From: Actinomycetota bacterium
GTDB lineage: Bacteria; Actinomycetota; UBA4738; HRBIN12
Direction of reading: 5' to 3'
DNA length: 64,000 nucleotides
Assembly (NCBI GenBank): GCA_026003015.1
Contig: BPGL01000002.1
Coordinates: 124,001-188,000, forward strand
Every line of letters starts with the position of its first letter. Position 1 is the first letter of the stretch. The translations under genes and the position numbers were made by a program. The notes below the pieces were generated by a model. The model was not told the origin of the DNA and searched no databases. It saw nothing but the letters and a program-made list of their open reading frames with translations. Of the stretch, positions 46,187-48,648 are shown one piece after another.

Positions 46187-47076
46187 ATGGCGGGTCCTGG
46201 TCGACCGCTTGGGCACGGGGCCGACGATCCGCTGCCCGCGCCGCCGCTCCCTCCGCCCCCGGCGGGACGCCCCACCCCGCCCCGCCGACCCGACGTCCCG
46301 CGGGAGCGCTGGAGCGGGGCGCAGGCCTCGCCCGCGGCGCGGCTCGGCGCTTCCCTCCTGGTCCTCGCCGTCGCGACCGCTGCGCTCGGCGGCGGGCTGC
46401 TTGCGATCCGACGGGTCACCGCGCCCGACCCCGCCTCCCTCGAGCACCGCTTCCTCGACCGGCGGGTCGACGGCTCGCCGCTGCGGTGGAACGCGTGCGA
46501 CACGATCCACTACGTCGTGAACGCGACGCGCGCACCGGCGGGGTCGGTCGCCGACGTGCACGAGGCCATCCGGCGCGTCTCGGAGGCCACCGGGATCGCC
46601 TTCGCCTACGACGGGCTCACCGACGAGGTCCCGACGAAGGACCGCGCCCCCTTCCAACCGGAGCGTACGGCGCGCGCTGGGCCCCCGTCCTGATCGCCTG
46701 GGTCGCGCCCGAGGAGACCGATATCCCGTTCCGACTCGAGGGGCACACCGCCGCCGCCGTGGCCTCCCCGCTGCGCCCGCCGAGCGGCGAGGAGGTCTTC
46801 GTGAGCGGGTACGTCGCGATGAACGTCCGCGATCCCAACCCGCCGGGCTTCGGCGCGCCCGGCGACCAGGGGCCAGTGCTCCTGCACGAGCTCGGGCACG
46901 TCATGGGGCTCGGTCACGTCGACCGACCGGGAGCGATCATGGAGCCGAGCGGGGGTGGCGTGACCGACTTCGGCCCAGGCGATCTCGAGGGGCTGCGGCG
47001 GGTGGGCAGGGAGGCGGGCTGCGTCGTCGCGCCGCCGGCGCCCGCCGGCCTTGCCGCGCCGCGCCCCGCCGGGTAG
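46187..47076 (+). CDS. Membrane-anchored metzincin (matrixin-type) metallopeptidase, one frameshift
   Basis: About 296 residues if one missing base is restored at 46664-46666. A Pro-rich cytoplasmic start and a membrane helix (ARLGASLLVLAVATAALGGG) precede the catalytic domain, which begins DRRVDGSPLRWNACDTIHY. Zinc site HELGHVMGLGHVDRPGAIM has the extended HExxHxxGxxH and the Met-turn Met. Joining PFQPE with YGARWAPVLIAWV restores the family's usual course. Unlike the breaks in gyrA or dnaA this is a deletion, and the gene is not essential, so a real pseudogene is possible. Confidence 0.75.
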
Positions 47077-47088
47077 CCTTGCACCTGC

Positions 47089-47157
47089 ATGATCCGCACG
47101 CGCGAGCGCGGCGCGGTCGCGGCGATGATCCCCGACCGCATCTGCTGTCCCCGCTGA
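47089..47157 (+). CDS. Candidate cysteine-sensing leader peptide (22 residues)
   Basis: A short frame starting ATGATC and ending RICCPR before TGA, 70 bases before tusA. Upstream, TAGCCT at 47074-47079 fits a TANNNT -10 box that would start transcription at or near the ATG, giving a leaderless message. A strong hairpin begins directly after the stop. Tiny leader frames with Cys codons near the end occur before sulfur genes in mycobacteria and act in cysteine-responsive control. Here the two adjacent Cys codons next to a hairpin suggest attenuation or coupling. Not proven. Confidence 0.5.
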   Translation: MIRTRERGAVAAMIPDRICCPR

Positions 47158-47184
47158 GGGGCGGCGCCGATCGGCGCGTGCCCC
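47158..47184 (+). terminator. Hairpin after the leader peptide (attenuator candidate)
   Basis: GGGGC (47158-47162) pairs with GCCCC (47180-47184), enclosing the perfect palindrome GCGCCGATCGGCGC (47164-47177). No U-run follows, so it is not a classical intrinsic terminator. Its first base follows the leader stop codon directly. Confidence 0.6.
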
Positions 47185-47227
47185 GGTTCCACCCCCTCCA
47201 AGCCGACCCCTGTCAAGGAGCCGAACC

Positions 47228-47461
47228 ATGGCCGTGATCGCCCGAACCGTCGACGCCCGAGGGCAGGCGTGCCCCGGCCCGCTCGTGATGCTCGCGCGGG
47301 CCCTGGGGGAGGCCGCTCCCGGGGACCTGTTGGAGCTGCTCGCGACCGACCCCGGATCGCGGTCCGACGTCCCGAGCTGGGCCGAGCTCAGCGGCAACGA
47401 GCTCGTGGAGGTGGACACGTCGACCGACGGGGTCTTCCGCTACGTCGTGCGCAAGGCTTGA
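47228..47461 (+). CDS. TusA-like sulfur carrier
   Basis: A 77-residue protein with VDARGQACPGPLVMLARAL, the CPxP persulfide-carrying Cys of the TusA family, and a C-terminal strand FRYVVRKA. AAGGAG precedes the ATG. It likely passes sulfane sulfur to partners such as the next gene's product. Confidence 0.92.
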   Translation: MAVIARTVDARGQACPGPLVMLARALGEAAPGDLLELLATDPGSRSDVPSWAELSGNELVEVDTSTDGVFRYVVRKA

Positions 47462-47472
47462 AGGAGGCTCCG

Positions 47473-48084
47473 ATGGCCACCACCGAGGAGCGTCGCGTCG
47501 AGGCGCGTCCGATCGAGGGCCGCGAGCCGACGGTCGACCCGGCCGCGTGGGCCGAGCTGCTTCGGCGTGTCGAGGCGCTCGAGCAGGCGCAACGCGCCGG
47601 CATCCAGAAGCGGAACAAGCTCACGATCATCGCCTGGGGCGGGGAGCTCGATCGGATCTGGCCGACGACGATCCTGGCCTCGACCGCGGCGGCGAGCGGG
47701 ATGGAGGTGAGCGTGTTCTTCACGTTCTGGGGGCTGTTCGCGATCGTGCGCCCGGACGTGCGGATCACCGGTAGGCACTGGATGCAGAAGATGATGTCGG
47801 CGATGAACCCCGGCTCGCCGGCGCGGGCCAAGCTCTCCCGCTACCAGTTCGCCGGCGCCGGCCCGGCGATGCTCAAGCACCTCGCGGCGACCCACCACGT
47901 CGAGCGGCCCGAGGCCCTGCTCGACCTCGCCAAGGAGATGGGGGCTCGCCTGATCCCCTGCCAGATGACGATGGACCTGCTCGGGCTCGAGCGCGACGAC
48001 CTGATCGACGGCCTCGAGGAGCCCATCGGCGCGGCGACCGCGATCCGAGAGATGCGCGAGGCCGCGATCTCGCTGTTCATCTGA
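47473..48084 (+). CDS. DsrE-family protein (COG2210 type)
   Basis: A 203-residue protein with an acidic helical start (VDPAAWAELLRRVEALEQAQ) and a DsrE/TusD-like domain. KLTIIAWGGELDRIWPTTIL, GMEVSVFFTFWGLFAIV and ARLIPCQMTMDLLGLERDDL give the conserved Cys. It follows tusA by 12 bases with AAGGAGG before the ATG. The pair probably handles sulfane sulfur transfer. Confidence 0.88.
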   Translation: MATTEERRVEARPIEGREPTVDPAAWAELLRRVEALEQAQRAGIQKRNKLTIIAWGGELDRIWPTTILASTAAASGMEVSVFFTFWGLFAIVRPDVRITGRHWMQKMMSAMNPGSPARAKLSRYQFAGAGPAMLKHLAATHHVERPEALLDLAKEMGARLIPCQMTMDLLGLERDDLIDGLEEPIGAATAIREMREAAISLFI

Positions 48085-48155
48085 GCCGGCGATCCGCCCG
48101 CGCGTCCGCCGTGCCGGCGGAAGCTCGGGACGCCGACCCCCGGGTGGACGGTAGT

Positions 48156-48170
48156 TAGTTCTGAGAACTA
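48156..48170. promoter_or_regulatory. Inverted repeat at the marR start, likely MarR operator
   Basis: TAGTTCTGAGAACTA is a perfect 6-3-6 inverted repeat, four bases before the GTG of marR. The adjacent TATCCT (48169-48174) may be the -10 of a leaderless message, so a bound repressor would block the promoter. Confidence 0.65.
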
Positions 48171-48174
48171 TCCT

Positions 48175-48648
48175 GTGTGCGTGCCGTCGGTCGCCTCCTC
48201 CGTCGACGTCGCCTCCCTGGCCTCCCGCCTGCGGACGGGCGTGTGGCGTCTGGCGCGGCGGCTTCGCTCCGAGGCCGACGTCGACCTGTCCCCGACCCTG
48301 CAGGCCGCGCTCGGGACGCTCGACCGCCACGGGCCGATGACCCCCGGCGCCTTCGCGCGCCACGAGCAGATCCGCAAGCCGACGGCGACCCGCACGATCG
48401 CAGCCCTGGTCGAACGGGGTCTGGTCGAGCGCACGCCCGACCCGCTCGACCGGCGTGTGTCGTGGCTGCAGCTGTCGTCCCAGGGGCGCCGGCTCCTCGG
48501 CCGCGTTCGCCGCCGCCACGACGCGTTCCTCGCCGCGCGTCTGGCGGCCCTTCGGCCCGAGGAGCTCGCGACGCTCGAGCGGGCGGCGGGGATCCTCGAG
48601 CGCTTGACCGAGGGGCCGGGCACGCCCTCGGAGGGACCCGAGGGATGA
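48175..48648 (+). CDS. MarR-family transcriptional regulator
   Basis: A 157-residue winged-helix regulator. The helix-turn-helix region is GAFARHEQIRKPTATRTIAA with the wing RTPDPLDRRVSWLQLSSQGR. The stop overlaps the ATG of the MFS exporter gene, which is probably its target together with itself. The inverted repeat overlapping its own promoter supports autoregulation. A GTG at 48181 could also start it. Confidence 0.9.
   Translation: MCVPSVASSVDVASLASRLRTGVWRLARRLRSEADVDLSPTLQAALGTLDRHGPMTPGAFARHEQIRKPTATRTIAALVERGLVERTPDPLDRRVSWLQLSSQGRRLLGRVRRRHDAFLAARLAALRPEELATLERAAGILERLTEGPGTPSEGPEG

Follow-up and report, generated by a model that had tools for sequence, protein, structure and literature searches.

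The DNA ahead of tusA-dsrE2 in an actinobacterial genome is read here, with moderate confidence, as a sulfur-operon leader in which cysteine-responsive attenuation lies beneath a Nur-type repressor, giving two layers of control, and cysteine supply is likely to be the signal. In the first layer, a Nur-like repressor of the Fur family probably binds the inverted repeat TTGCANNTGCAA over the transcription start. In the second, a near-leaderless transcript would encode a conserved 22-residue peptide, and when charged tRNA-Cys is scarce the ribosome would pause at Cys codons 19-20. While paused there, the ribosome would keep the Cys codons from pairing beyond the stop and would cover the beginning of a C-rich tract. 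When cysteine suffices, the ribosome would leave, a hairpin would form, and Rho would load on the tract and end transcription before tusA-dsrE2. Paralogous leaders would share the same sensor, some of them with an intrinsic terminator instead.

A leader frame upstream of tusA-dsrE2

The window, the whole stretch of 64,000 nucleotides that was analysed (G000:C2:124001-188000), belongs to a genome of 2.2 Mb in 4 contigs that is 90.5% complete. Its features of interest are as follows.

47051-47056, + strand: -35-like hexamer TTGCCG, with a spacer of 17 nt to the -10 box
47074-47079, + strand: -10 box TAGCCT (TANNNT), the ATG following 9 nt further on
47079-47090, + strand: candidate operator TTGCACCTGCAT, an inverted repeat TTGCA-N2-TGCAA with one mismatch, from sequence comparison
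47089-47157, + strand: leader frame MIRTRERGAVAAMIPDRICCPR with its stop, 22 codons (ATG at 47089, TGA at 47155-47157)
47143-47148, + strand: Cys codons 19 and 20, TGC TGT, read from the sequence
47144-47165, + strand: hairpin 1, GCTGTCCC (47144-47151) with GGGGCGGC (47158-47165), the stop codon in the loop, from a local fold
47158-47184, + strand: hairpin 2, arms 47158-47168 and 47173-47184, directly 3' of the leader stop
47185-47215, + strand: C-rich, G-poor tract resembling a Rho site, before the ribosome-binding site, from a comparison of composition
47216-47220, + strand: Shine-Dalgarno sequence AGGAG of tusA, read from the sequence
47228-47461, + strand: tusA, 77 aa (PF01206, E 6.8e-24)
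47473-48084, + strand: dsrE2, 203 aa (PF13686, E 1.6e-41)

The TANNNT box that a first-pass annotation had placed before the leader frame is TAGCCT, with the -35-like TTGCCG 17 nt upstream. Transcription had been proposed to start at the ATG itself; because the -10 box ends 9 nt before the ATG, the start probably lies a few nucleotides ahead of it, and the transcript would be near-leaderless (not provably so) rather than exactly leaderless. The candidate operator runs from the last base of the -10 box across the likely transcription start to the second base of the ATG. From the leader stop to the tusA start the distance is 70 nt. A search of Rfam 15 returned no family above its gathering score at 47074-47227, and only two tRNAs in the whole window.

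Two neighbouring genes were also observed. Upstream, a matrixin-like metalloprotease gene (window 46330-47076) is split over two frames with a break near 46650-46694, reflecting either a frameshift or an assembly error, and its stop codon shares bases with the -10 box of the leader. Downstream of dsrE2, in window 48145-48175, a AGTTCTGAGAACT-like palindrome (by eye) precedes a MarR-family gene (48175) and is perhaps the own operator of that gene. As a candidate regulator of the leader the MarR gene was dropped, its upstream palindrome being, by eye, unlike the sulfur operator.

The tusA leader is conserved across the family

The family is HRBIN12, within the UBA4738 group. A table of MAGs lists these two names together (PMC13248718). 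In the family sample of 17 genomes, tusA was matched in 16/17. The seventeenth genome (G006, 67% complete) holds a piece of a tusA leader (L108) at a contig end; in G012 the close tusA orthologue was split in the search and was read from L045, taken as the same contig. The leader frame stands upstream of tusA at 16/16 close orthologous loci from twelve genera of the family, with 47-82 nt between the leader stop and the likely tusA start (47-90 nt to the matched start; n=16), and dsrE2 lies downstream of tusA at 16/16 loci. The 22-residue frame ending in RICCPR that had been noticed ahead of tusA-dsrE is thereby real: it is kept at the 16/16 orthologous loci with protein-like substitutions, and no locus was found that keeps tusA-dsrE and has lost the frame.

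The tusA leaders are 22, 23, 28, 30 or 35 residues long (n=16) and follow the consensus [MVL][IV]RTRxxGxV[GA]xMIPxR[LI]CC, in which M1, T4, R5, G8, V10, M13, I14, P15, R17 and C19 are invariant among the 16; the leaders of G001-G003 have one codon more, giving Cys-Ala-Cys. A TANNNT -10 box (best of three positions) lies 9-13 nt before the ATG in 16/16 tusA leaders, and 15/16 of their promoters have a -35 hexamer starting TTG at a spacing of 17-18 (best of spacings 16-19). Among the tusA leaders the synonymous fraction of codon changes is 0.49, against 0.20 +/- 0.065 in 300 column shuffles (maximum 0.40). A chance frame was ruled out, the observed fraction lying above all column shuffles, and the leader is almost certainly translated and under selection.

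Paralogous leaders across the class

A sequence model built from the 16 tusA leaders (R1), when run against the class (here equal to the order; 27 genomes), added 32 matches with E no higher than 0.001. These and three weaker matches made up the 35 stretches fetched, other weaker R1 matches staying outside the counts; six stretches were left out (L112-L116 without a leader-like frame, L108 cut by the contig end), and 29 paralogous leaders were kept, 27 of them with a downstream gene in view. Rhodanese, nirA, cysH or tusA genes follow 24/27 of these. By target, 14 leaders precede a rhodanese-type gene (the type of mycobacterial cysA2), several with sufB further on, 7 a nirA-like sulfite reductase, 2 cysH, 1 a second tusA-dsrE2 (G018), 2 a DUF3303 gene and 1 a carbonic-anhydrase-like gene (by eye), and 2 have no gene in view; representatives of the target genes were checked with Pfam and the remainder labelled by resemblance. 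The window genome itself carries three leaders, that of tusA, one at C1:639004 before a rhodanese gene and one at C2:105102 before nirA-cysH. What the first-pass annotation took for a separate case is one member of a family of sulfur-gene leaders under a common operator. In two genomes (L093 and L100; Pfam for L093 only) a family leader stands before a small DUF3303-type protein, which suggests a sulfur role for the DUF3303 family.

A second model (R2), built from 39/45 leaders after near-duplicates had been removed by hand, was run on 396 genomes of the phylum at E 1e-4. It matched in 20/27 class genomes, its 45 matches being the same 45 leaders, and in 0/369 phylum genomes outside the class under stricter filters, with which weak matches are lost. 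The window leader frame scores 57.7 bits (E 7e-17) against R2, which was partly built from the same sequence. Overall, T4, R5, G8, V10, M13, P15, R17 and C19 are invariant in 45/45 leaders; this invariance and the combined p values given below are overstated, given the kinship of the leaders and the use of similarity to find the paralogues. Paralogues found in this way are bound to look alike, and the independent evidence is in their silent changes: the synonymous fraction is 0.60, against 0.18 +/- 0.05 in shuffles.

Strong residue conservation would also be expected of a frame with no role in stalling, either encoding a small trans-acting protein or keeping the 5' end of the mRNA translated. 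Single genomes hold as many as three similar frames, which stand ahead of sulfur operons, and the tails vary in length, for 22 to 38 residues in all; both observations speak against such a role, which we hold to be improbable. An incidental frame over a structured RNA or DNA element is more improbable still. The UGU at codon 20 does point to selection at the nucleotide level too, but the synonymous fractions lie far above those of shuffles, paralogues use in-frame GTG/TTG starts, a 3-nt insertion in three relatives keeps the frame, and Rfam gave no match at gathering score.

The Cys codons and a near-fixed UGU

Conservation of the two adjacent Cys codons had been put forward as a check, and it holds fully for the first and in part for the second: C19 is present in 45/45 leaders, whereas position 20 is Cys in only 36/45, with a second Cys at position 21 in 3 more. 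C20 is replaced by Gly in four nirA leaders and by Arg in two other leaders. Longer leaders continue in a tail of up to 18 residues after the Cys codons, and many tusA leaders have an additional Cys at position 3, 6, 16 or 18. While the C19 codon is TGC in 41/45 leaders, the second Cys codon is TGT in 38/39 leaders having one (16/16 in tusA leaders), against a background of 70/667 Cys codons (10%) in 288 predicted genes of the same genomes (binomial 2e-36, relatedness ignored). Because of this enrichment, selection appears to act on the nucleotide besides the residue at codon 20. A wobble-read UGU may be more sensitive to tRNA charging, or UGU may be needed for pairing.

These patterns bear on a different sensor, nascent-chain arrest, in which the peptide MIxTRxxGxVGAMIPxRLC would stop the ribosome from within the exit tunnel in response to a metabolite or to thiol/metal state, with the Cys codons belonging to an arrest motif instead of gauging charged tRNA. 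Leaders that count codons need nothing beyond Cys codons, and here the residues listed above are invariant before different operons while C20 is not. Against this, all copies were found by similarity within one class and may share recent ancestry, and the extra Cys at positions 3, 6, 16 or 18 suits codon counting. We regard nascent-chain arrest as possible, though rather unlikely, and continue with pausing at the Cys codons as the preferred reading.

RNA pairing and the output at tusA

Folds were computed for 42/45 leaders and the pairing and terminator tests were run on 43/45, using predicted starts of the first gene (that of L107 set by hand). A strong hairpin after the leader stop had been described in the first-pass annotation; its position (47158-47184) stands, but it is not evidently conserved and by energy it is no more than chance would give: the fold of the window leader did not exceed shuffles, either from the ATG to tusA (z -0.14) or from the Cys codons to tusA (z -0.50). 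The associated proposal, that a stalled ribosome alters this hairpin, survives in a changed form, in that pairing of the Cys codons with downstream sequence beats shuffles in tusA leaders. Compared with dinucleotide shuffles, the 12 nt from codon 19 pair downstream at p<0.05 in 6/16 tusA leaders (Fisher 2e-5), three of the six being the near-identical G001-G003. Two control stretches inside the leader gave p<0.05 in 1/16 and 0/16 (Fisher 0.997 and 0.60), and one downstream control stretch gave Fisher 0.28. Neither the window leader by itself (p 0.38) nor the paralogues taken together (Fisher 0.14) reached significance in this test.

Local folding has bases of the Cys codons paired with the stop or with sequence beyond it in 10/16 tusA leaders, 7 of which hold the stop codon in the loop. 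The partner falls within the leader frame in L011, L014 and L015, and pairing of this kind is absent from L006, L007 and L045. In 4/16 tusA leaders no base of the second Cys codon is locally paired. An informal listing of the pairs has variants among the relatives, such as C-G, U-A and A-U after codon 20. In the window, hairpins 1 and 2 are mutually exclusive. Further downstream, pairing of the post-stop arm was no better than in shuffles across the 16 relatives, and the arm showed no significant pairing with the C-rich tract (Fisher 0.66).

An intrinsic terminator (GC hairpin plus U-tract) between the Cys codons and tusA was found in 0/16 tusA leaders and was rejected as the output there; in paralogous leaders one was found in 7/27, with 0.3 expected. 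These strong terminators (L086, L088, L089, L092, L096, L097, L103) stand before rhodanese, nirA or cysH, and some leaders of this type hold GCGGCC-like pieces which might pair with a terminator arm and so serve as antiterminators. The absence of a terminator in 16/16 tusA leaders would also suit translation attenuation, in which pausing frees the tusA ribosome-binding site, as is stated for cysteine genes of M. smegmatis in a paper citing Canestrari 2020 (PMC13236596). In our models, however, freeing the RNA by stalling brought no consistent change, and hence no consistent rise, in exposure of the tusA ribosome site; sequestration of that site found no support, and we consider translation attenuation unlikely.

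The tract before the tusA ribosome-binding site is rich in C. C minus G, taken over positions -55 to -15, averages 0.36 in the 16 tusA leaders, and the window has 0.28. The starts of 116 control genes average -0.002 (sd 0.14), and 1/116 reaches 0.36 (p 1.4e-10); these control starts were called with a simple codon model, and some of them belong to loci of the regulon itself. Rho is encoded in the window's own genome (TIGR00767, 595.8 bits, above cut-off). With no terminator, a C-rich tract, a Rho gene and no opening of the ribosome site, Rho is therefore the favoured output at tusA, a reading for which the balance of probability is about level.

A probable operator common to the leaders and a Nur-like gene

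The inverted repeat TTGCANNTGCAA lies between the -10 box and the start and was found at 16/16 tusA leaders (at least 10/12 matches), where TTGCACCTGCAA adjoins the -10 box and extends to the ATG. Among paralogous leaders, 19/29 have the repeat (at least 10/12 matches, within 90 nt upstream) and 10/29 have none at that level in the same 90 nt. It lies 23-29 nt before the start in 8/9 nirA/cysH leaders and in L087, L088 being without it; in the rhodanese leaders of G001-G003, G010, G013 and G016 it directly follows a TTGAC-type -35, and at rhodanese leaders L101 and L111 it stands in the other orientation. That the repeat moves and flips favours a DNA site bound by a protein over a signal in the RNA. 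Such variable placement, over the start or between -35 and -10 and in either orientation, would fit a repressor site.

Across the 27 genomes the pattern TTGCANCTGCAA is present at 67 places, against 17 matches for a reversed control pattern (TTGCAGCTGCAA in G007 reads on both strands, so that 68 matches are 67 places). By our own assignment, 61/67 places belong to leaders or genes of the set, namely 12 leaders of tusA, 9 leaders of nirA/cysH type (one without a gene in view), 6 leaders of rhodanese, 16 promoters of the Fur-family gene, 13 mec-moeZ-cysO-like operons, 3 single-domain rhodaneses and 2 cbiM genes. JAMM and ThiF domains were checked in the genome's own mec operon and other mec copies were assigned by comparison with it; CysO-like, cbiM and single-domain rhodanese genes were named by eye. 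At six matches (L174, L181, L183, L184, L197, L205) no such gene was recognised; these are possibly chance matches or further members. The window holds a single match at up to 2 mismatches, with 0.65 expected by chance, and the evidence for the operator therefore lies in the relatives. At the mec-moeZ-cysO-like operon of the same genome (G000:C1:860139-860150; L050) the start codon adjoins the -10 box and inverted repeat, and there is no leader peptide.

The repeat is also present in 16 genomes ahead of a gene for a Nur-like Fur-family protein, at a distance of 12-23 nt. In the window genome the promoter of this gene (L168; G000:C1:about 122150-122650) contains TTGCACCTGCAA, another copy, a partial one, stands just upstream, and cbiO-/cbiQ-like genes (by eye) are convergent with the gene. 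The Fur-family protein of G002 (L170), with which the L168 protein shares 67% identity, has 3EYY as its best solved relative (E 1.2e-24; the next at 2.4e-13). In 14/14 complete copies (two incomplete copies set aside), four His are conserved at positions where the aligned Nur also has His, and we take them to be the M-site residues. According to PMC7055735, 3EYY is the Nur of S. coelicolor, with nickel bound at the M site by four His. NCBIfam had no model at cut-off for either the L170 or the L168 protein. The Nur box is printed as tTGCaa-N5-ttGCAA in PMC3919588; the operator described here agrees with it in the half-sites and differs in the spacer (2 instead of 5), so that the box as printed is not matched. 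Binding of the operator by the Nur-like protein is, from these comparisons, likely.

Discussion

Attenuation by a Cys leader is in principle already known. Seliverstov 2005 put forward, from prediction, Cys leaders ahead of cys operons in Mycobacterium and other taxa, saw no conserved terminator hairpin and suggested Rho (PMC1262725), and Shell 2015 described conserved Cys-rich leaderless ORFs in mycobacteria, one of them before cysA2 (PMC4633059). The leaders described here resemble these in being short ORFs, probably near-leaderless, with Cys codons near the end, ahead of sulfur genes, and the tusA leaders share the lack of a conserved terminator hairpin for which Rho was proposed there. They differ, the mycobacterial leaders being compared by description, in a conserved 20-residue peptide confined to the class in our sample, in two Cys codons of which the second is nearly always UGU, in an inverted repeat, the probable operator, that also stands at a Nur-like gene, and in the target tusA-dsrE2. 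Classical attenuators such as M. tuberculosis ilvB1 (PMC13236596) use a terminator, as do 7/27 of the paralogues and 0/16 of the tusA leaders.

Leaders of the tnaC type are Rho-dependent, have no U-tract terminator and carry a C-rich untranslated tract before the first gene. The tusA leader is similar in its leader ORF, absence of a U-tract terminator, C-rich untranslated tract and encoded Rho, and differs in that cysteine takes the place of tryptophan and shielding by the ribosome is putative. The tna operon is named in PMC1262725.

The regulator resembles S. coelicolor Nur in its sequence, the four aligned His and the TTGCA half-sites, and in a site at the cobalt/nickel importer gene cbiM (by eye) in 2 genomes. 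Unlike in S. coelicolor, the spacer is 2 instead of 5 (PMC3919588), and most sites are at sulfur genes or at the regulator's own gene. A search of titles and abstract openings, including few subscription papers, returned no Fur- or Nur-type regulator of sulfur assimilation in actinobacteria and no leader before tusA-dsrE2. Within the literature searched, the peptide family, the near-fixed UGU, the Nur-type operator and the target tusA-dsrE2 are new.

More speculatively, the leaders could be class-wide, cysteine-sensing and sequence-specific arrest peptides with UGU near-fixed at the second Cys and with Rho (tusA) or terminators as outputs, much of the set being under a Nur-type regulator recruited from nickel to sulfur. 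If true, this reading of arrest peptides and Nur recruitment would link metal status to cysteine supply.

Under the favoured two-layer reading, a sulfur regulon would be reconstructed for an actinobacterial class that is uncultured, and a Fur-family metal regulator would be joined to cysteine supply. With one peptide before different operons and one rare codon near-fixed, the leaders would also provide a compact test case for telling charged-tRNA counting from nascent-chain sensing.
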